The position numbers and the translations under genes were made by a program. From Actinomycetospora lutea (lineage in GTDB: Bacteria; Actinomycetota; Actinomycetes; Mycobacteriales; Pseudonocardiaceae), in contig NZ_JAQZAL010000013.1 of the NCBI RefSeq assembly GCF_028737205.1, forward strand, positions 1 to 64,000: a DNA stretch of 64,000 bases, read 5' to 3'. Position 1 is the first letter of the stretch. Each line of letters starts with the position of its first letter. Under the pieces are notes generated by a model. It saw only the letters and a list, made by a program, of their open reading frames with translations. It was not told where the DNA came from and ran no database searches. This document shows positions 6,904-35,803 of the stretch, one piece after another.

Positions 6904-7683
6904 TTATAGCGGGTCGGTCAGTTCGATCCAGGTCGGCGCGTGGTCGCTGGTCTTCTCCTTGGCGCGGACGTCGCGGTCGACCCCGGAGGCCACGAGCCGG
7001 GCCGCGACGGCCGGGCTGAGCATCAGGTGATCGAGCCGCAGGCCCGCGTCGCGACCGAACGCGTTGCGGAAGTAGTCCCAGAAGGTGTAGATCCGCTCGC
7101 CCGGGTGCAGCGTCCGCAGCGCGTCCGTCCAGCCCTGCGCGGCGAGCCGGTGGAACGCGTCGCGCACCTCGGGGCGGAACAGGGCGTCATCGACCCAGCG
7201 CTCCGGCTTGTAGACGTCGAGGTCGGTCGGCATCACGTTGTAGTCGCCGGCCAGGACGACCGGAACGCCGCTTGCGAGCAGGCTCGCGGCGTAGCCGATG
7301 AACGCCTCGAACCAGGCCAGCTTGTCGTCGAACTTGGGACCGGGAGCCGGGTTGCCGTTGGGCAGGTAGAGGCAGCCGATCAACATGCCGTTCACCGTCG
7401 CCTCGATGTAGCGCGACTGCCGCGAATCGGGCTCGCCCGGGAGACCGCGGCGGGTCTCGGTCGGCGACTCGCCGCGAGCCAGGATCGCGACCCCGTTCCA
7501 GCTTTTCTGTCCCAGCCAGACAGCCTCGTACCCGGCGTCGCGAATGGCGGCCGCAGGAAACCTCTCCTGCGGCGCCTTCAGCTCTTGAAGGCAGACGACG
7601 TCCGGCCCGGCCTCCCCCAGCCACTCCAGCAGGACCGGCAGCCGCCCGTTCACGCCGTTCACGTTGTAGGTCGCGATCTTCAT
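6904..7683 (-). CDS. xthA: Exodeoxyribonuclease III (AP endonuclease)
   Basis: A 259-residue EEP-superfamily nuclease that cleaves DNA 5' of abasic sites and removes 3' blocking groups in base-excision repair, using Mg2+. All family motifs are present: N-terminal MKIATYNVNGVNGR, metal-binding Glu34 in LQELK, the Asp147/Asn149 pair in GDYNV, RLDHLMLS, and the catalytic Asp247-His248 in SDHAPTW. Length is normal for XthA. It is a single gene with no operon partner, between the tRNA-Lys-derived repeat and the IS3-family element. Intact and probably functional. Confidence 0.95.
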   Translation of the reverse strand: MKIATYNVNGVNGRLPVLLEWLGEAGPDVVCLQELKAPQERFPAAAIRDAGYEAVWLGQKSWNGVAILARGESPTETRRGLPGEPDSRQSRYIEATVNGMLIGCLYLPNGNPAPGPKFDDKLAWFEAFIGYAASLLASGVPVVLAGDYNVMPTDLDVYKPERWVDDALFRPEVRDAFHRLAAQGWTDALRTLHPGERIYTFWDYFRNAFGRDAGLRLDHLMLSPAVAARLVASGVDRDVRAKEKTSDHAPTWIELTDPL

Positions 7684-7971
7684 CTCGTAGGTACGCCTCG
7701 TCCCACGATCACCACAACCAAGGCCAGCTCGCGCACCGCCACAAGGTCACGCTATACGGCTGACTTCAGGCTCAGCCGGTGGCGGACCGGGTCCTGCCAG
7801 CGCCAACGTCGCTGTCGACGTAGAAGCCGGTTATCGGAGCTCACGGAGGTCGACTGGCGCGCTGATCCCCCGCCTCGAGTCCTGGGCAGCGCCCGAAACA
7901 CTTCCTGACCTTCCCCCGGTTCTGCGGACACCTACCCTGAGGCGACGGTGGTCGCCGGGAAGGATGTCCTC

Positions 7972-28146: not shown

Positions 28147-30369
28147 TCAGCTGCTGAACTGCTGGATGCGGACGTACTCCAGGTGCCGTTCGTACTCATC
28201 GAGGATGTCGTCGGTGAGCTGCCCGTACGTGTAGCCCATGACGTCGTAGTCCTGGCCGCCAGCCTGGAGGTGCACCTCGAGGCGGCAGTACGTGTCGGTG
28301 TCCTTCAGGACGGCGTGGCCGTAGACGGGGATGGAGACCTCGCGCGGCCGGATCCGGTACAGGAACTGATGCCCTTCCCCCAGCTCGGCGACCAGCTCGA
28401 CGATCGTCGTGCCGTCCGCGTCGCGGTCCGTCCGCGCCTCGGCCTCGACGCAGCGCTCTCGCAGGTGCGTGGCCACCTCTTCCACGGCCGGGAACGCCAC
28501 CTCCTCCAGGAACTCCTCCGCACGGTCCTTCCCGGGGAACGACATCGCCCGGTCCAACTGCTGCCGCCACCCCAGCCCACCGTGGTGGTGCCCGTCGGCC
28601 GGGCTGCGACCCGAGATGGACGACCGCAGGGCGTACTGCTGGCTGCCGCGTGCATGTCCTCGCTGATGCACAAGCTGCGCGAGATGGACAAGCGCGTCAT
28701 CGGCATCGGCGTGCAGTCCTCGACCTCGAAGCTGCTGCCCGCCGCGTGCGACGAGTCCCAATTCTACGACCACCTCCCGGGCGTCGAGGGGCGACCCGTT
28801 CCCGCCCGACCGTTGCGGCGGCGGCCGACGTCCCCCGGCGGCCGCCCACCGCAGCGCCTTGTAGAGGCCGTACATCACCAGCAGGAGCACGAACGCGAAG
28901 GGCAGGCCCATGATGATCGTGGCGTTCTGCAGCGCGGGCACGCCGCCCACGGCCAGCATCCCCACCGTGAGTAGACCGGTGGCCACGGCCCAGAAGATCC
29001 GCACCGGCCGCGAGCCGTCCGACTGCGGGGTCTTCAGGTGGGAGCTCAGGTTGGCCATGACGAGGGCCGCCGAGTCGGCCGAGGTCACGTAGAACAGCAG
29101 GCCGACGAAGGTCGCGACCCCGGCGATGAACGGCACCGCCGGGTACTGCGCAAGCAGCTGGTAGAAGCCCTGCGCGTTGTTGTCCAGGGTGTTCTGCCCG
29201 AAGGCCACGTCGCCGTTGCGGATGATCTCGATCGCGCTGTTTCCGAAGATCGAGATCCACATGACGATGTAGGTGAACGGGATGATCAGCGTCCCGGCCA
29301 CGAACTGGCGGATGGTGCGGCCCCGGGAGATGCGGGCCAGGAACAGCCCCACGAACGACGCCCAGGCGATCCACCACGCCCAGAAGAAGAGCGTCCAGGA
29401 GCTGAGCCAGTCGACGGGCTGGTCGTAGGCGAACGTCTCGAGCGTCAGTGCGGGGAAGGAGCTGACGAAGTCACCGACGTTCTGCACGAGCGCGTTGAGC
29501 AGGAACACCGTGTTCCCGGCGACCAGCAGGAACAGGGCCAGCCCGATCGCGAGCAGCACGTTGAGCTGACTCAGCAGCTTGATGCCGCGGTCGACCCCGC
29601 TGACGGCCGACACGGTGGCCATGACCACGGCGAGGGCCACGAGCCCGATCTGGGCCCCCGTGCCCTCCGGGATCCCGAACAGGAAGGTGAGCCCGTAGTT
29701 GAGCAGTACCACCCCGATCCCGAGCGACGCCGCGACACCGAAGATCGTCCCGAGTACGGCGGCGAGGTCGACGGCGGTGCCGATGCCGCCGTGGATCCGC
29801 TTGCCGAAGATGGGATACAACGCCGACCGGATCGCGAGCGGGAGGTTGCGGCGGTAGGCGAAGTAGGCCAGCGACATGCCCATCAGCGCGTAGAGCCCCC
29901 AGCCGCTGATCCCGTAGTGGAACAGCGTCCACACCGTCGCGTCCTCGGCCGCGAGCAGGGTGCCGCCCTCGCCGCGTGGCGGCGTCAGGTACTGGGTGAC
30001 CGGCTCGACGACGGCGAAGAACATCAGATCGGTGCCGATGCCGGCGGCGAACAGCATCGACGCCCACGCGAACGTGCTGAACTCGGGTCGCGAGTGCTCC
30101 GGCCCGAGCCGGGTCCGCCCGAGGCGGGAGGCGCCCACGACGATCACGAACACCAGGACCAGCGTGGTCAGCAGGATGTAGAACCAGCCGAACCACTCCG
30201 AGGTCCAGCTCACCACGGCGCCGATGGTGTCCGCGGCCGACGTCGGAGCGATGATCGCCCAGATCGCGACCGCGAGCGTCACCGCGGCGGACCCGTAGAA
30301 GACGATCGGTTTGATCCGGGCTCCGGGTTTCGGACCCGCCGTGGGCGCATCCGTCTGGACCTCGCTCAT
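28147..30369 (-). CDS. BCCT-family transporter (BetT-like) with disturbed linker
   Basis: A 740-residue betaine/choline-type transporter with about twelve membrane spans (signature WTLFFWAWWIAWASFVGLFL, then ARISRGRTIRQF) and the long BetT-type cytosolic C-terminal domain. That domain is recognisable from ISGRSPADGHHHGGLGWRQQ through AMSFPGKDRAEEFLEEVAFP to DVMGYTYGQLTDDILDEYER. Between the last span (LYKALR) and this domain lie about 75 residues of low-complexity sequence. On the opposite strand part of that stretch encodes a NYN-nuclease-like fragment, so it appears to be an in-frame insertion. ATG 30369 is behind GGAGG. Still one open frame, so the transporter may work with altered regulation. 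Confidence 0.88.
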   Translation of the reverse strand: MSEVQTDAPTAGPKPGARIKPIVFYGSAAVTLAVAIWAIIAPTSAADTIGAVVSWTSEWFGWFYILLTTLVLVFVIVVGASRLGRTRLGPEHSRPEFSTFAWASMLFAAGIGTDLMFFAVVEPVTQYLTPPRGEGGTLLAAEDATVWTLFHYGISGWGLYALMGMSLAYFAYRRNLPLAIRSALYPIFGKRIHGGIGTAVDLAAVLGTIFGVAASLGIGVVLLNYGLTFLFGIPEGTGAQIGLVALAVVMATVSAVSGVDRGIKLLSQLNVLLAIGLALFLLVAGNTVFLLNALVQNVGDFVSSFPALTLETFAYDQPVDWLSSWTLFFWAWWIAWASFVGLFLARISRGRTIRQFVAGTLIIPFTYIVMWISIFGNSAIEIIRNGDVAFGQNTLDNNAQGFYQLLAQYPAVPFIAGVATFVGLLFYVTSADSAALVMANLSSHLKTPQSDGSRPVRIFWAVATGLLTVGMLAVGGVPALQNATIIMGLPFAFVLLLVMYGLYKALRWAAAGGRRPPPQRSGGNGSPLDAREVVVELGLVARGGQQLRGRGLHADADDALVHLAQLVHQRGHARGSQQYALRSSISGRSPADGHHHGGLGWRQQLDRAMSFPGKDRAEEFLEEVAFPAVEEVATHLRERCVEAEARTDRDADGTTIVELVAELGEGHQFLYRIRPREVSIPVYGHAVLKDTDTYCRLEVHLQAGGQDYDVMGYTYGQLTDDILDEYERHLEYVRIQQFSS
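28651..28790 (+). other. NYN-domain-like coding fragment antisense inside BCCT gene
   Basis: The plus strand reads LMHKLREMDKRVIGIGVQSS, then TSKLLPAACDESQFYDHLPG, then VEGR. This resembles the C-terminal part of a NYN/LabA-type (PIN-like) nuclease domain, where a KLRExGKRVIGxG strand is followed by SSxxLxxACDEFxFYD. It has no start codon or ribosome site. It coincides with the linker of the BCCT transporter that lacks family similarity, so a piece of a NYN gene seems to have been inserted in reverse. Confidence 0.55.
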
Positions 30370-30498
30370 CGCGCCCTCCACTCGTCACCGCACCACGCGC
30401 CCCCGAGCCAGAACCGGACAAGTTCCCCACGTTCGACAATCCGTGCGAAGGCACTTCGCTGGGGTTTCACGGCGGGAGGAGGCACACTGGTGCGTGGT

Positions 30499-30520
30499 GT
30501 GCCGGGAAGTCTGGTCGGCG
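30499..30520 (+). promoter_or_regulatory. Leader motif copy 1 (GCCGGGAAGYCTGGTCGGC), upstream of DUF3040 gene
   Basis: Contains GTGCCGGGAAGTCTGGTCGG followed by CG, ending about 36 bases before the DUF3040 start. It is directly preceded by an inverted repeat, GGCACAC...GTGTGCC, that could form a hairpin. Three near-identical copies lie at 31866–31887, 34724–34745 and 34861–34882, each in the leader of another gene. Confidence 0.7.
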
Positions 30521-30555
30521 TGACGGGAGTGAGCACGAACCGAGGACGGCGACCG

Positions 30556-30873
30556 ATGACCACCGGCGCAGCAGCACCGACACCACCTGAACCTTCGCGT
30601 CCGCTCACTGAACGGGAGCAGGCCGCGCTGTCGAGGCTCGCCGCCGACACCCGACGTGACGATCCGGAGTGGTTCGACCACCTCGCGGCGTCGTTGCCCC
30701 CGCGGCGCCGCGTGAGCCCCCGCGTGCGGGACCTCATCATCCAGGTCGTGGTGGTCGTCGTCCTGGCCGTGCTGCTGTTGCCGAGCGGATGGCTGGGCGG
30801 CCTGGTCGCGGTGATGGTGCTGGTCGGCCCGCTCGGCGCCGCGTTGTGGGCGATGCGGCGCGGCATGCTCTGA
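30556..30873 (+). CDS. DUF3040-family small membrane protein
   Basis: A 105-residue protein with an N-terminal amphipathic segment (LTEREQAALSRLAADTRRDD, then PEWFDHL) and two adjacent membrane helices (VRDLIIQVVVVVVLAVLLLP, WLGGLVAVMVLVGPLGAALW). This is the DUF3040 pattern: LxExEQxxLxxLexxLxxDDPxF followed by a hydrophobic hairpin. The role is unknown; such genes often sit in actinobacterial stress loci. ATG 30556 follows GAGGACGGCGACC. The leader contains motif copy 1, and the gene is divergent from the second BCCT transporter. Confidence 0.88.
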   Translation: MTTGAAAPTPPEPSRPLTEREQAALSRLAADTRRDDPEWFDHLAASLPPRRRVSPRVRDLIIQVVVVVVLAVLLLPSGWLGGLVAVMVLVGPLGAALWAMRRGML

Positions 30874-30897
30874 CCTCCGCGCCGCCGCTGCGCCGTC

Positions 30898-31767
30898 CTA
30901 CCGGTGGTCCGCCTGCTCAGCAGGCTCCGGCGCGGCCGGTGGGAGGCCGACCGTGGGGAGGTCTTCCGCGAGCTCCCGAGGTCCGCCCGTGGGGGCGTCA
31001 CCCTTCGACGTACCGCCGGCGTGCTCGAAGAAGCGCAGCATCTCCACCGGGAACGGCATCACCAGCGTGCTGTTCTTGTCCGAGGCCACGTCGGTCACGG
31101 TCTGGAGCAGCCGCAGCTGCAGGGCCCCCGGGGTCTCCCCCATGGCCGCGGCGGCCTGAGACAGCTTGGCCGAGGCCTGCAGCTCGCCGTCGGCGTTGAT
31201 CACCCGAGCGCGCCGGTCGCGCTCGGCCTCGGCCTGGCGGGACATCGAGCGGCGCATCCCTTCGGGCAGGGAGATGTCCTTGATCTCCACGCGGTCGACG
31301 TGAATTCCCCAGTCCTCGGTGGGAGCGTCGATGACGTCGCGCAGCTCGGCGTTGATGCGGTCCCGGTCGGAGAGCAACGTGTCGAGGTCGGCCCGACCGA
31401 TGACCGACCGCAACGACGTCTGGGCCACCTGCGACGTCGCCTGCAGGTAGTGGTCCACGTTGATCACCGCGCGGACCGGGTCCTCCACCCGGAAGTAGAC
31501 GACCGCGTCGACCCCGATCGTGACGTTGTCCTGCGTGATCGTCCCCTGCGACGGGACGTCCAGCACGATTGTCTGCACCGGGACCTTCCGCATGCGGTCC
31601 GCGATCGGGACCATCACCCGGAGGCCCGGCTGCCGGACCTGGGGCAGCAAACGTCCGAAGCGCAGGACGACTCCCCGTTCGTACTGCTGGACCATCCGCA
31701 CGCTCGACGCGACCAGCAGCAGACCCGCCAGCACGGCCACTAAGAGCACGATCAGTACGCTGTTCAT
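30898..31767 (-). CDS. SPFH/Band-7-domain membrane protein (stomatin-like)
   Basis: A 289-residue protein with one N-terminal membrane anchor (NSVLIVLLVAVLAGLLLVAS) followed by a Band-7/SPFH domain. Key segments: VQQYERGVVLRFGRLLPQVR, QDNVTIGVDAVVYFRVEDP, TSLRSVIGRADLDTLLSDRD and VEIKDISLPEGMRRSMSRQA. Stomatin-like proteins scaffold membrane microdomains and often regulate proteases. No NfeD partner lies adjacent. The start is ATG 31767, where the membrane anchor begins; a longer frame upstream is just translation of the leader. Motif copy 2 is about 98 bases upstream. Confidence 0.92.
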   Translation of the reverse strand: MNSVLIVLLVAVLAGLLLVASSVRMVQQYERGVVLRFGRLLPQVRQPGLRVMVPIADRMRKVPVQTIVLDVPSQGTITQDNVTIGVDAVVYFRVEDPVRAVINVDHYLQATSQVAQTSLRSVIGRADLDTLLSDRDRINAELRDVIDAPTEDWGIHVDRVEIKDISLPEGMRRSMSRQAEAERDRRARVINADGELQASAKLSQAAAAMGETPGALQLRLLQTVTDVASDKNSTLVMPFPVEMLRFFEHAGGTSKGDAPTGGPRELAEDLPTVGLPPAAPEPAEQADHR

Positions 31768-31865
31768 GAACCCACCCCGTCGATGTGCAGAGGCATCACC
31801 GTCGAGGACGCATCGAGGTGGGGCGACAGGTACGACCCGTCCCGTTCGGCGCGCGACAACGGCGA

Positions 31866-31887
31866 CGCCGACCAGACTTCCCGGCAC
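31866..31887 (-). promoter_or_regulatory. Leader motif copy 2, upstream of SPFH gene
   Basis: On the minus strand GTGCCGGGAAGTCTGGTCGG followed by CG, identical to copy 1 over 22 bases. A short inverted repeat (CACTC...GAGTG) directly precedes it with a different stem sequence from copy 1. The distance to the SPFH start is about 98 bases. Confidence 0.7.
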
Positions 31888-31993
31888 TCCGCTGTCGAGT
31901 GTGCTCCTCGTGTCTAAGAAACGACTGAGCGTGGAGCGGTCGAGTTGAGGTCCTGCTGTCCGTGCCCTCAGCCGAGCCGCTGGAGGTCCACAG

Positions 31994-32189
31994 ATGGAAC
32001 CGGCTCACCAGGACGACGTCCGCGCGTCGCATCGCGAGCGCGAGCTGGTCGTCGAACGGCTCACCGCGCGCTCGGACAGGGGCGGCTGAGCCTCGCGGAG
32101 TTCGACAGCCGCGCGGTCTCGGCGCACGCCGCGGTGACACGGCCGAGCTGGCCGAGCTGACCAAGGACCTGCCGGGTCGCCTCTGGTGA
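31994..32189 (+). pseudogene. DUF1707-type small protein, frameshifted
   Basis: The sequence encodes MEPAHQDDVRASHRERELVV, then ERLTA, and a base shift breaks it. GRLSLAEFDSRAVSAHAAVT continues in a second frame and TAELAELTKDLPGRLW ends in a third. Joined, it is a typical DUF1707 domain (RxSxxERExxxxRLxxAxxxGRLxxxEFxxRxxxAxxAxTxxELxxLxxDLP). Two shifts within 200 bases make it a pseudogene. It lies divergent to the SPFH gene. Confidence 0.8.
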
Positions 32190-32223
32190 GGCCGCGCTGC
32201 GCGCCCGCCGACGTCAGTCGGCG

Positions 32224-34692
32224 TCAGTCGCCTTCCTCGACCACGACGGTGCCGGCGGCGCCGTCGATGCTGATGACCTGTCCGGTCCTGATCAGCTGGG
32301 TCGCGTCGCGGACGCAGATGACGGCGGGGATGCCGTACTCCCGGGCCACCGTCGGACCGTGAGCCATGGGTGACCCGGTCTCGGTGACGAGGCCGCCGAT
32401 CGTCATGAACAGGGGCGTCCAGCCGGGGTCCGTGGTCGGGGCGACGAGGATCTCCCCTGGCTCGACGTGCGCCTCGCCGGGGTCGAGCACGACGCGCGCC
32501 CGTCCGACCGCGACCCCTGGCGCGGCGGCGGCCCCGACCAGGCTCCCGTCCGCGGCCGGGCCGGCCGGGGCGAGGGCTTCGGGCACGGTGCCGTCGGACA
32601 GCAGGAGCCCGGGGACGCTCCGCCGCCCGCTCTCCCGCGCGTACTCGCGGCGGCGGTCGCCGACGAGCGCCCGCAGGTCCACGCCGTCCACGGCGTCGCG
32701 GGCCTCCCGGAGATCGAGGAACACGATGTCGTCGGCCCGATCCAGCAGCCCGCGTCCGTAGAGCTCCTCCCCGACCGCGAGGAGCTGGCGGCGCATCTCG
32801 GCGAAGGCATGGAGCCACGTGAACTTGGGCAGCTCACGCAGCCCGGCGAGGGCCCGGGACCGGCGGAGGAAGAACGCGACACCGACGGCCCGGACCGGGC
32901 GGGTGCGGCGGGCCCGACGCACCAGCTCGTCGATCTTCGCCTCCGCCTCGCGGGACGCGGCGGCGAAGCGCCGGTCCGGTGCCTGGGTGGGATCGGTGAG
33001 GCGCAGGTAGTTCGCGATCGCGGCGAACACGGGGGTCGGGTCCTCGCTCCAGCGCGGCACGCCGACGTCGATCTCGGCGGCGCTGCGGTGCCCGTACAGG
33101 GCCAGGAACTCGTCGAGCCCGAGGTCGGGCAGCGCCCCGGCGCGGTAACGGGCGGCGAGCTCGGCGGGTGTGGTCGCGAGGAGCAGGTCGCGGTGCTCGC
33201 CCGCGTCCGCGGACAGCCGCCACAGGGCCAGGTCCATCTCGGTGGTGACGTTGTGCGACATCCCCCGCAATGTCTCGTCGACCTCGCTCTCGGTGGCCAC
33301 GCCCGCGAGCAGGGCCAGCGCCGCCGATCGGCAGACCATCATCGCGTAGATCGGCCCGAGCATGTCGCCCATCCCAGCCCGCAGGAAGGCGCCCTGGACC
33401 GCCATCGCGAAGCGGACGCGGTCGGCGGCGTCGGCGAGGCCCGCGGGCGGCCGGCTGTCGTGCCGGACCTGCGCCGCCGCGCGCATCGCCCGGGCCCGGG
33501 CGCGACGTGGCCGGGCGAGAGCCCCGACCAACCCGACGAGGAGGCCCGGCGCCACCCGGGCGGCGACCGGCGCCACCGCCCGCCACCGGAAGGGCCGGCC
33601 CCGCACCGGAGCGAAACGGGGGTCCTCGAGCACGCGCTCGAGGGCCGCGGTCACGCGTGGGCCGTAGATCGTCATGGCGGCCGGGAGCCGGGTCCGGACG
33701 CGGCCCCAACGGACCACGCTGGTCATGTCGAGGTACATGCGTCCGGCCACGTCGACGATCAGGGGGTGGCCGAACGGGTCGCTCGGGACGCCGATGCTCT
33801 CCAGGTACTGCGCCGTCGCGACCCGCATCGCGGACATGCCCATCGGCGTGAACGGCCGCAGCATGCCCTGCATGTGCCCGGCCTCGAGGTAGACGCGGTC
33901 GCCGGGGCGGGGTGCCCGGGGCAGCGGGAACAACGTGGTGATCGCCCTGCTCTGGAGCAGCCAGAGCACGCCGTCGCGGTCGAACGCCCACTCGACGTCC
34001 TGGGGGGCGCCGGCGAGGCGCTGCAGCCGCTCGCCGGCGGCCCGCAGCTCCGCGAGCCGGTGCGGGTCAAGGCAACCGCCCGCCTCCTCGACCGGCCGCC
34101 CCTCCGGCAGGACGTAGTGGTCCGCGCTCACGCTGCCGTCGACGACGGCATCACCGAGCCCGGGCACGGCGTCGATGACCATCTCCGTGCGGCACCCGGT
34201 GATCGGGTTGGCGGTGAACATCACGCCGGCCGCGGCCGGCTCGACCATGCGCTGCACCACGACACCCATCGCCACCGGCCCGCCGACGGGCGTCGCCTCG
34301 CGGTAGGCGACCGCGCGTTCACCGGTCAACGACGCCCAGCACCGCTCCACGGCGTCGATCAGCGCGGCCTCGCCCCGGACGTCCAGGACGGTCTCGTGCT
34401 GGCCGGCGAAGCTGGCGTGCGGCAGGTCCTCGGCGGTGGCGCTCGACCGCACCGCGACCGGTCCCGCGCCGAGACGCCGGTAGGCCTCCACAATCTCCCG
34501 GCGCACCGCGACACCGACGGTCTCCGTTGCGCCCTCCTGCGCCGGAGCCGTAACGCAGTACCCGGACGGCACGCGCTCGCCGGCGCGGACCAGCGCCGCC
34601 AGCCCCGCGGCCTTGCCGCCGACGAGGTCGGTTCGCGTCGAGTCCACCTCGGCGAGATCCACGACGGTCCGGCCGACGGTGAGGGTGCCCAT
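32224..34692 (-). CDS. PEP synthase / rifamycin phosphotransferase-like protein
   Basis: An 822-residue phosphotransferase. The N-terminal ATP-grasp domain (about 1–300) has LVGGKAAGLAALVRAGERVP, VAVRSSATAEDLPHASFAGQ and WLLQSRAITTL. A central helical domain resembles the substrate domain of rifamycin phosphotransferases more than the PEP/pyruvate barrel. The C-terminal swivelling domain has PTTDPGWTPLFMTIGG and GSPMAHGPTVAREYGIPAV with phosphohistidine His778. It should move the beta-phosphate of ATP through His to a substrate; whether that is pyruvate, rifamycin or another molecule is open. Motif copy 3 ends 31 bases before ATG 34692. Confidence 0.85.
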   Translation of the reverse strand: MGTLTVGRTVVDLAEVDSTRTDLVGGKAAGLAALVRAGERVPSGYCVTAPAQEGATETVGVAVRREIVEAYRRLGAGPVAVRSSATAEDLPHASFAGQHETVLDVRGEAALIDAVERCWASLTGERAVAYREATPVGGPVAMGVVVQRMVEPAAAGVMFTANPITGCRTEMVIDAVPGLGDAVVDGSVSADHYVLPEGRPVEEAGGCLDPHRLAELRAAGERLQRLAGAPQDVEWAFDRDGVLWLLQSRAITTLFPLPRAPRPGDRVYLEAGHMQGMLRPFTPMGMSAMRVATAQYLESIGVPSDPFGHPLIVDVAGRMYLDMTSVVRWGRVRTRLPAAMTIYGPRVTAALERVLEDPRFAPVRGRPFRWRAVAPVAARVAPGLLVGLVGALARPRRARARAMRAAAQVRHDSRPPAGLADAADRVRFAMAVQGAFLRAGMGDMLGPIYAMMVCRSAALALLAGVATESEVDETLRGMSHNVTTEMDLALWRLSADAGEHRDLLLATTPAELAARYRAGALPDLGLDEFLALYGHRSAAEIDVGVPRWSEDPTPVFAAIANYLRLTDPTQAPDRRFAAASREAEAKIDELVRRARRTRPVRAVGVAFFLRRSRALAGLRELPKFTWLHAFAEMRRQLLAVGEELYGRGLLDRADDIVFLDLREARDAVDGVDLRALVGDRRREYARESGRRSVPGLLLSDGTVPEALAPAGPAADGSLVGAAAAPGVAVGRARVVLDPGEAHVEPGEILVAPTTDPGWTPLFMTIGGLVTETGSPMAHGPTVAREYGIPAVICVRDATQLIRTGQVISIDGAAGTVVVEEGD

Positions 34693-34723
34693 GGTGCGCT
34701 CCGTCCGGGATATCCGACAGGGA

Positions 34724-34745
34724 CGCCGACCAGGCTTCCCGGCAC
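34724..34745 (-). promoter_or_regulatory. Leader motif copy 3, upstream of PEP-synthase-like gene
   Basis: Minus strand GTGCCGGGAAGCCTGGTCGG followed by CG, ending 31 bases before the start codon. It is preceded by TACCGTCCGCCTCGGTG, in which ACCG/CGGT can pair. One base (C for T) differs from copies 1 and 2. Confidence 0.7.
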
Positions 34746-34860
34746 ACCGAGGCGGACGGTACTCCGGGCCGACCGCTGGTCAAGGCCTCCTCGGGGCGGC
34801 CCGGCGCGGCGCCGAGGAGTCTTCCCGCCCGTCATCGGCGGGCGTACCGTCCTCGGTGGA

Positions 34861-34882
34861 GCGCCGGGAAGCCTGGTCGGCA
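34861..34882 (+). promoter_or_regulatory. Leader motif copy 4, upstream of ABC transporter
   Basis: Plus strand GCGCCGGGAAGCCTGGTCGG followed by CA, ending about 30 bases before the ABC ATPase start. It is preceded by TACCGTCCTCGGTGGA with the same ACCG/CGGT pairing as copy 3. Copies 3 and 4 form the two arms of the divergent intergenic region 34693–34912. Confidence 0.7.
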
Positions 34883-34912
34883 CACGTGATCCTGCTGACC
34901 AGGGAGCACCCC

Positions 34913-35803
34913 ATGTCCGGACCCGCGCTGCGCACGGTGGACCTCTCCAAGCGCTACGGGCGCATCACAGCACTCGACCGGCTGGACCTCGAGGTCGCGG
35001 TCGGTGAGGTGCTGGGGCTCCTCGGTCCGAACGGTGCCGGCAAGTCGACCACCGTGCGGTTACTGCTCGGCCTCGCCCGGCCCACGTCGGGACGCGCGTG
35101 GATCTTCGATCGAGCCGCCGGCGACGTCGAGGCCGCGCACCGGCTGCTGGCCTACGTGCCGGCGGACGTGGCGTTGTGGCCGGGGATGACCGGCGCGGAG
35201 TGCCTGGAGCTACTCGCCCGTATCGGGCCGGGCACCGACCGCGCCTACCGTGACGAGCTCGTGGCCCGCTTCGAGCTGGACGTCGACCGTCCGGCGCGCA
35301 CCTACTCGACGGGCAACCGTCAGAAGGTCGCCCTGGTCGCGGCGTTCGCCACCCGGGCGCCGTTGCTGCTGCTCGACGAGCCCACCAGCGGGCTCGACCC
35401 GCTCATGGAACAGGTGTTCCGCGCCGTGGTGCGCGAAGCACGGGAGAACGGGCAGTCCGTGCTGCTCAGCTCCCACCAGCTCAACGAGGTCGAGGCCCTC
35501 TGCGACCGCGTCGCAGTGCTGCGGTCGGGCCGGCTCGTCGAGGTCGCCCGGATGGCGAATCTGCGCCGCCTGCACCGCAGCGAGGTCGAGGCGAGCTTCG
35601 CCGGCGTCGTGCCCGCCCTCGAGGCGGTCCCGGGGGTGGACGGCCTCGAGGCACTCGGTGAGGGCCGGGTCCGCTTCCTGCTCAGCGGTCCGCCCGGCGC
35701 GGCGATGGCCGCCCTCGCCGCGACCGACGTGACGACGCTGCGGATCACGGAACCGAGCCTCGAGGACGTGTTCCTCACCTACTACGGGACCGGTGGGTCG
35801 TGA
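34913..35803 (+). CDS. ABC transporter ATP-binding protein
   Basis: A 296-residue ATPase of the multidrug/antibiotic exporter type (DrrA/CcmA-like). Walker A GPNGAGKST is at about residues 38–46, a degenerate signature YSTGNRQK replaces LSGGQ, and Walker B LLLLDEPTSGLD, the D-loop and the switch His (LSSHQ) follow. The C-terminal 80 residues (VDGLEALGEGRVRFLLSG, then EPSLEDVFLTYYG) are typical of exporters. ATG 34913 follows AGGGAGCACCCC. It overlaps the permease gene by four bases. Efflux of a hydrophobic compound is the likely role; substrate unknown. Confidence 0.93.
   Translation: MSGPALRTVDLSKRYGRITALDRLDLEVAVGEVLGLLGPNGAGKSTTVRLLLGLARPTSGRAWIFDRAAGDVEAAHRLLAYVPADVALWPGMTGAECLELLARIGPGTDRAYRDELVARFELDVDRPARTYSTGNRQKVALVAAFATRAPLLLLDEPTSGLDPLMEQVFRAVVREARENGQSVLLSSHQLNEVEALCDRVAVLRSGRLVEVARMANLRRLHRSEVEASFAGVVPALEAVPGVDGLEALGEGRVRFLLSGPPGAAMAALAATDVTTLRITEPSLEDVFLTYYGTGGS

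Follow-up and report, generated by a model that had tools for sequence, protein, structure and literature searches.

A conserved sequence of about 25 nucleotides (nt) occurs four times in gene leaders of a 64,000-nt stretch of Actinomycetospora lutea DNA (contig NZ_JAQZAL010000013.1, positions 1 to 64,000; the whole of this stretch is referred to as the window) and is very likely a new conserved cis-regulatory element of cation-transport genes. We assign a probability of roughly 0.5, from sequence comparison, to the reading that it is a 5'-terminal cis-regulatory RNA in which an aptamer and a competing helix would control Na+/H+ antiporters in response to an alkali cation or pH. As far as these tools go, a chance or artefactual origin of the motif is excluded.

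A first-pass annotation of the window had described nearly identical motifs before four genes, all in the sense orientation, with no other copy in the 64 kilobases (kb). These observations were borne out. The 19-nt core GCCGGGAAGYCTGGTCGGC has four exact matches at the places described, spanning 4.4 kb, each of them in the sense orientation relative to the downstream gene, and no fifth match at ≤3 mismatches is present within the window. At that tolerance the chance expectation for 64 kb is 0.16 matches, and a count of four was not attained in any of 100 shuffles. Covariance model R1 scores the copies at 41.7 to 46.4 bits and the remainder of the window at ≤18.6 bits. The gap between core and ATG is 36 nt for the DUF3040 copy (ATG 30556), 99 nt for the SPFH copy (ATG 31767), 32 nt for the PEP-synthase-like copy (ATG 34692) and 31 nt for the ABC copy (ATG 34913); three of the copies have U.G as their closing pair and one has C.A. 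The copies and their surroundings, in window coordinates, are these:

30483..30488, + strand: copy 1 -10-like hexamer CACACT (sequence; -10 spacing over 205 sites)
30495..30521, + strand: element copy 1, DUF3040 leader, core 30501-30519 (exact match, R1 46.4 bits; closing pair U.G)
30550..30555, + strand: CGACCG, directly before the ATG (RNAfold; CGACC/CCGACC enriched downstream of sites)
30556..30873, + strand: DUF3040 protein gene (PF11239, 1.5e-08)
30898..31767, - strand: SPFH/Band_7 protein gene (PF01145, 1.7e-39)
31865..31891, - strand: element copy 2, SPFH/Band_7 leader, core 31867-31885 (exact match, R1 45.0 bits; closing pair U.G)
31898..31903, - strand: copy 2 -10-like hexamer CACACT (sequence)
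32224..34692, - strand: PEP-synthase-like gene, PPDK_N plus PEP-utilizers (PF01326, 9.5e-61; PF00391, 7.6e-22)
34723..34749, - strand: element copy 3, PEP-synthase-like leader, core 34725-34743 (exact match, R1 44.4 bits; closing pair U.G)
34756..34761, - strand: copy 3 -10-like hexamer TACCGT (sequence)
34845..34850, + strand: copy 4 -10-like hexamer TACCGT (sequence)
34857..34883, + strand: element copy 4, ABC transporter ATPase leader, core 34863-34881 (exact match, R1 41.7 bits; closing pair C.A)
34894..34903, + strand: GCTGACCAGG, complement (one G.U) of copy 4 CCTGGTCGGC at 34872-34881 (RNAfold)
34902-34906, + strand: likely Shine-Dalgarno sequence GGGAG of copy 4, its first two bases overlapped by GCTGACCAGG
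34913..35803, + strand: ABC transporter ATP-binding protein gene (PF00005, 1.3e-25; drrA TIGR01188 below cut-off)

The element is widespread beyond the window. A pattern search of the A. lutea genome found five sites within one mismatch, the fifth of which, on contig C19, precedes an NhaA Na+/H+ antiporter gene (PF06965 match at the same place), and the covariance model returned the same five matches at E ≤ 1 with 150 of 14427 first-look candidates scored. Allowing up to one mismatch, the core was identified in 17 of the 18 genomes of the genus, in 282 of 297 genomes and 46 of 46 genera of the family, and in 104 of 396 genomes drawn across the phylum, with a reversed control pattern almost absent in all three scans. 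A scan of named genomes gave at least 119 stretches with the core; among the matches listed, 113 are Actinobacteria by name, including Streptomyces, Amycolatopsis, Nocardia, Mycolicibacterium, Micromonospora, Arthrobacter, Agromyces and Nonomuraea. Six listed matches lie outside this group (two Chloroflexi, one Ktedonobacteraceae, Mesorhizobium, Eremiobacterota and one titled only "bacterium"), are without the usual context by eye and may be chance matches. A 24-nt pattern had no exact match in a viral collection.

From these scans 207 distinct sites were collected, of which 205 had full flanks and 188 remained after removal of those with flanks ≥70% alike; an open reading frame (ORF) was called for 184 of the 188, its start lay within 60 nt in 151, and 129 of these had a recognisable Shine-Dalgarno sequence. 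The six sites from outside Actinobacteria are among the 188 but do not form part of the 67-row covariance model. As sites were picked by the exact 19-mer with its N, invariance inside the 19-mer is a selection effect; GGNG, the -10 box and the flanking pair lay outside the selection pattern. The consensus over the 205 sites is GGNGHGCCGGGAAGNCTGGTCGGCR, with the parts GGNG-H-GCCG-GGAAGNCTGGT-CGGC-R. A TANNNT box starts at -18 relative to the core in 98 of these sites and at -19 in a further 34, thereby ending 7 or 8 nt, respectively, upstream of the consensus element, and it is found at -17 to -21 in 148 sites overall; at any other offset scanned between -12 and -49, TANNNT occurred in no more than six. 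This near-fixed spacing suggests that the mRNA probably begins with the element, and with normal -10 spacing the transcript would probably start at or within 1 to 2 bases of GGNG. Apart from the -10-like box, a sequence logo from -60 to +78 contained no second conserved block. Among the 151 sites with a start within 60 nt, the median distance from core to main start codon is 35 nt (27.5 to 54 for the 5th to 95th percentiles). The sense orientation seen in the window is general: among the 160 of the 188 sites that have 700-nt flanks, 116 have on their sense side, within 70 nt, the start of an ORF equipped with a Shine-Dalgarno-like sequence, and 5 have such a start on their antisense side.

The short inverted repeats described upstream of each window copy do exist in the sequence but look incidental, as their left arms overlap the -10-like box (CACACT or TACCGT), located 18 to 13 nt upstream of the core. 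In a different genome, the DUF3040-leader site (L058) has GGCATAA in place of the arm GGCACAC. Because of this overlap and this change, the proposed architecture of a variable stem plus a constant core, with the upstream repeats as the stem, was abandoned. Two other observations were made upstream of the element. Repeated TCAG-type words (e.g., CTCTCAGG...CTCAGC) lie upstream of the -10 region at three loci (L034, L059 and L060), perhaps marking a response-regulator site. In nhaA-type leaders of Streptomyces (L161, L174, L177 and L183), a TTAGGTAAGCTAA-like sequence, which we take to resemble an operator of the iron-box type, lies upstream of the motif and the -10 region looks unusual (CAAGAT-like).

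Pairing of GCCG with CGGC inside the motif, also pointed out in the first-pass annotation, gained support from changes at the inner pairs. With the partner base left free, pair C1-G17 was found as U-A in five sites and as G-C in one, so that six of six distinct changed sites are compensated, and no uncompensated change was found among sites otherwise keeping both arms. These six come from two scans that gave five (four U-A and one G-C) and three sites, with two shared. The first scan had 40 matches, 35 of which have lost at least one arm (three retain just the left one) and resemble chance matches, and its reversed control had 22. The G-C site (L241) is without a clear -10 box or Shine-Dalgarno sequence and is the least certain of the six. 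The one site changed at pair C2-G16 carries U-A and is likewise compensated. A lineage variant, GGCGTGCCGGGAAGACGGGTCGGC, in which the loop U is replaced by G, precedes nhaA at L278, L279, L282 and L285, all of one genus, and may mark an altered specificity.

The closing pair behaves differently. In the 188 nonredundant sites U.G occurs 86 times (55.5 expected) and C.A 52 times (23.2 expected), while the Watson-Crick combinations are depleted, with 3 C-G (29.5 expected) and 11 U-A (43.7 expected); A.A accounts for another 11. Mutual information between the two positions is 0.465, against a maximum of 0.12 in 2000 permutations, with relatedness uncorrected. U.G and A+.C are isosteric wobble pairs, which explains the exchange of U.G for C.A at this position, whereas a DNA palindrome gives no explanation for it; the C.A pair may be protonated. 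Because of the compensatory changes, the constrained wobble-type closing pair and the sense orientation, an RNA element is favoured over a DNA element, a choice that we regard as likely.

A second, competing fold is predicted from the sequence downstream. Among pieces of the core, positions 12-18 (GGUCGGC) have the complement most enriched downstream: CCGACC occurs there in 50 of the 188 sites versus 20.7 in shuffles and CGACC in 83 versus 47, with the complements of overlapping words such as CUGGUC enriched more weakly. The commonest location of the first CGACC is 10-14 nt past the core and 16-27 nt ahead of the start codon. Predicted pairing of core positions 12-18 with the downstream leader averages 0.74, compared with 0.55 in shuffles (151 sites; Mann-Whitney p 3e-15, relatedness uncorrected). 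At copy 1, the alternative fold is predicted to join CGACCG to TGGTCG (30512-30517), with the arm directly against the ATG, and at copy 4 RNAfold predicts a helix of ten pairs, one of them G.U, that extends into the likely Shine-Dalgarno sequence. In these models the competing fold and the covarying hairpin are mutually exclusive, as in a switch.

The genes that follow the element are mainly antiporter genes. Downstream ORFs were chosen by a heuristic, so some are surely wrong, and 103 of the 184 directly downstream encode NhaA (PF06965) Na+/H+ antiporters. Also present are 12 Na_H_Exchanger proteins, 8 DUF3040 proteins (all in the set with the window's genus), 7 ABC ATPases, 5 Mrp/complex-I-type antiporter subunits, 4 CBS and 3 PPDK_N proteins, two each of P-type ATPases, ArsB/NhaB/CitMHS-like and SPFH proteins, and one each of Na_Ca_ex, TrkH, TrkA_N and H+-pyrophosphatase. 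NhaA is present in 62 of 79 class genomes, and in a set of 30 NhaA loci, which are the best-scoring and not a random sample, 16 have a sense motif within 400 nt upstream, each at 0 or 1 mismatch. The suggestion that stress- and transport-related genes form an undescribed regulon holds as far as Rfam and the literature searched go, with Na+/H+ antiporters as its main members, a composition invisible from the window alone. A gene for a BetT-type choline/BCCT transporter (28147-30369, - strand) is the divergent neighbour of the DUF3040 gene, which places the four-site cluster beside an osmoprotectant transporter.

In the reading that we favour, a cis-regulatory RNA of about 25 nt, (N)GGNGHGCCGGGAAGNCUGGUCGGCR, would occupy the extreme 5' end of the mRNA and form a short hairpin, HGCCG / CGGCR, with a wobble-type basal pair (mostly U.G or C.A) and the highly conserved loop GGAAGNCUGGU of 11 nt, accompanied by GGNG as a tail. 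The hairpin's 3' half (CUGGUCGGC) can in many leaders pair instead with a CGACC-type segment shortly upstream of the ribosome-binding site; the hairpin would then serve as the aptamer and the competing helix as the expression platform. The regulated genes would be Na+/H+ antiporters, NhaA foremost, together with accessory genes in Actinobacteria, and the likeliest signal would be an alkali cation, either Na+ or Li+, or the alkaline pH linked to it. The structured leader RNA that had been suggested for the four window copies is supported by covariation, the wobble-type pair, orientation and spacing; the ligand-binding riboswitch named with it goes a step further. What the sequences show directly is how conserved the element is, where it occurs and before which genes, covariation at three pairs, its distance from a -10-like box and the enriched competing complement; that transcription begins at the motif, that a ligand binds there and that the leader switches in a given direction is inferred.

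Several results weigh against this reading. No TANNNT box is present at -17 to -21 in 57 of the 205 sites. Statistics for the pairs of the whole structure did not exceed those of shuffles (67-row R1 model, standard pairs only), because C.A is counted as unpaired and two of the pairs never vary. In nearest-neighbour folding, none of 151 sites had a hairpin probability above 0.5, the mean was 0.006 versus 0.053 in shuffled leaders, and forcing the hairpin cost about 9.5 kcal/mol on average in 129 sites. The forced hairpin opened the Shine-Dalgarno sequence in 14% of those 129 sites and closed it in 35%, a mixed effect from which no clear ON or OFF logic follows; the CGACC segment is enriched, but with no consistent direction in this modelled effect it was not accepted as a proven platform. 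For a sensor of alkali cations such an aptamer would be of small size, and a dimeric DNA-binding protein could also give symmetric changes at the inner pairs. Some downstream genes (DUF3040, SPFH, alpha/beta hydrolases) are not cation-transporter genes, and 14 of the 30 NhaA loci are without the motif, the nearest match having at least 4 mismatches. ORFs of more than 600 amino acids (aa) are found at 5 of these 14 loci versus 1 of the 16 with the motif, and the second NhaA of the A. lutea genome (contig C18, ORF of 1074 aa) is not among the five sites.

A riboswitch for Na+, Li+ or pH stands at about even odds against all rivals together, of which the main one is an RNA-binding protein. The 5'-terminal hairpin could be the site for such a trans-acting protein, or for a small RNA, that coordinates a salt/pH-stress regulon, with the RNA itself sensing nothing. 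Every observation that favours an RNA element applies to this reading too, several genes per genome can share the element (five sites in A. lutea), and the isolated hairpin is predicted to be weak. Its small size and highly conserved loop are common among hairpins bound by proteins. An expression platform is, however, the better match for the competing complement ahead of the ribosome-binding site, and no candidate regulator turned up, though no search aimed at one was made; we consider a trans-acting factor fairly unlikely. The alternative raised in the first-pass annotation, a shared protein operator, would take the form of an imperfect palindrome, GCCGnnnAGNCTnnnCGGC, immediately after the promoter, to which a dimer acting as repressor or activator would bind. 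The core's dyad symmetry about a variable central base and its near-fixed phase to the -10-like box would suit a transcription factor, a change in whose specificity could alter both half-sites symmetrically. Orientation-indifferent, symmetric half-sites are nevertheless not what the sites present: the asymmetric part (GGGAAG left, CTGGTC right) is oriented with the gene in 116 and opposite to it in 5 of the 160 sites, and the flanks are mostly U.G or C.A, with T in one half-site and C in the other, which a symmetric dimer would not impose. The enrichment of the GGTCGG complement between motif and start codon also argues against an operator. We judge an operator improbable; one of fixed orientation would be a possible exception to the orientation argument.

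Translation of the element itself would offer another route to regulation, through a leaderless mini-ORF that starts at the GTG of GGTG (V-[C/R/S]-R-E-x-W-S-A) and acts on the main gene by translational coupling or stalling. GTG is found at -4 of the core in 148 of the 188 sites, 69 of 151 sites have their main start at a distance in the frame that permits RTGA overlap, and where both a stop and an ORF call were available (98 sites), the mini-ORF stops within 4 nt of the main start in 34. Yet GTG is missing from 40 of the 188 sites (GAG in 23), the frame excess is modest with relatedness uncorrected, the variable base N falls on a second codon position, and the compensatory changes track base pairs, not synonymous codons; this explanation is very improbable. 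Least probable by far is that the motif is a mobile element or dispersed repeat with no regulatory role. The four near-identical copies within 4.4 kb might suggest one, but just five sites were found in the genome, their flanks are unrelated, they usually lie between a -10-like box and a gene, copies in many non-leader places were not seen, and the element is conserved across the phylum, with its 24-nt pattern absent as an exact match from the viral collection.

Should the riboswitch reading be true, the element would be a main sensor of sodium/alkali in a phylum where Rfam and the literature searched yielded no such RNA. The sensing of sodium or alkaline stress in Actinobacteria, antibiotic-producing Streptomyces among them, seems for the most part an open question, and a conserved 25-nt sequence before antiporter genes provides a directly testable handle on it. 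A phylum-wide class of minimal (~25-nt) riboswitches at 5' mRNA ends, sensing Na+, Li+ or protons through the hairpin, is a tentative proposal to which we give slightly less than an even chance; such an element could be among the smallest natural ion-sensing RNAs. It also connects DUF3040 genes, whose function is unknown, with ion homeostasis; if bound by a protein instead, it would mark the target of an unknown phylum-wide ion-stress regulator.

Stem covariation in homologues, a covariance-model search and a comparison with Rfam had been put forward as checks on the motif; they returned the compensated changes and five genome sites described above, and no Rfam family matching at the motif, whether at the gathering cut-off in the window or at E ≤ 5, so that assignment to a known RNA family was rejected. 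Other Rfam matches in the window are an ALIL pseudoknot (RF01497; 47367-47496, - strand) and a group II intron (RF00029; 44895-44955, - strand), and an Ms_IGR-5 small RNA match lies at 7551-7801 of a motif-bearing Blastococcus locus (L116). None of six core words of the motif was found in the literature searched, and no actinobacterial sodium leader RNA appeared in those searches, judged by titles and abstract openings. The string "actino" is absent from the main text of PMC9646797 and PMC9337991. New RNAs from 50 genomes, including nqrA-II and Streptomyces motifs, are reported in PMC11109978, and the present element is unmentioned in the portion of that paper drawn on here. Strong NaCl induction of the cation/H+ antiporter gene SCO3602 is described in part of PMC13011467, and a portion of PMC3765725 was also consulted.

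Four known riboswitches invite comparison. The nhaA-I/Li+-I riboswitch (RF03057, with Na+-II variants) precedes nhaA and other cation-transporter genes, as the present element does, and activates expression at high Li+ according to the part of PMC9646797 used here. Its model has 55 positions, whereas the present element has about 25 nt and one hairpin. The RF03057 covariance model gave no match at E ≤ 0.001 in the A. lutea genome (150 of 4478 first-look candidates scored) and none at E ≤ 5 in 10 motif-bearing loci, and membership in nhaA-I was rejected on this model. The nhaA-I RNA was also found in none of the six core-bearing genomes outside Actinobacteria, so no alignment to the nhaA-I consensus was possible. 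The nhaA-II/Li+-II riboswitch is likewise located mostly before nhaA and, as stated in the same part of PMC9646797, is unrelated to nhaA-I yet senses the same ion; no Rfam family of any kind matches at the motif at E ≤ 5, a result for which the presence of an nhaA-II model in the Rfam copy was not separately checked. The DUF1646/Na+-I riboswitch senses Na+ and regulates Na+/H+ antiporters and other sodium-related genes (PMC9337991, in the part consulted); it is known from several phyla, among which that paper names Firmicutes, Proteobacteria, Acidobacteria and Verrucomicrobia. It is built of two extended stems, P1 and P2, and has conserved nucleotides in the P2 loop and at the base of P1 (PMC9337991), unlike the single 5-pair hairpin of the actinobacterial element, at which it has no Rfam match. 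The ydaO c-di-AMP riboswitch is discussed for Streptomyces in the context of osmotic stress in the part of PMC10117811 drawn on here and precedes cell-wall hydrolase genes in that genus; it, too, has no Rfam match at the motif. By analogy, the element may work like the Li+-I, Li+-II and Na+-I riboswitches, which control the same kinds of genes.

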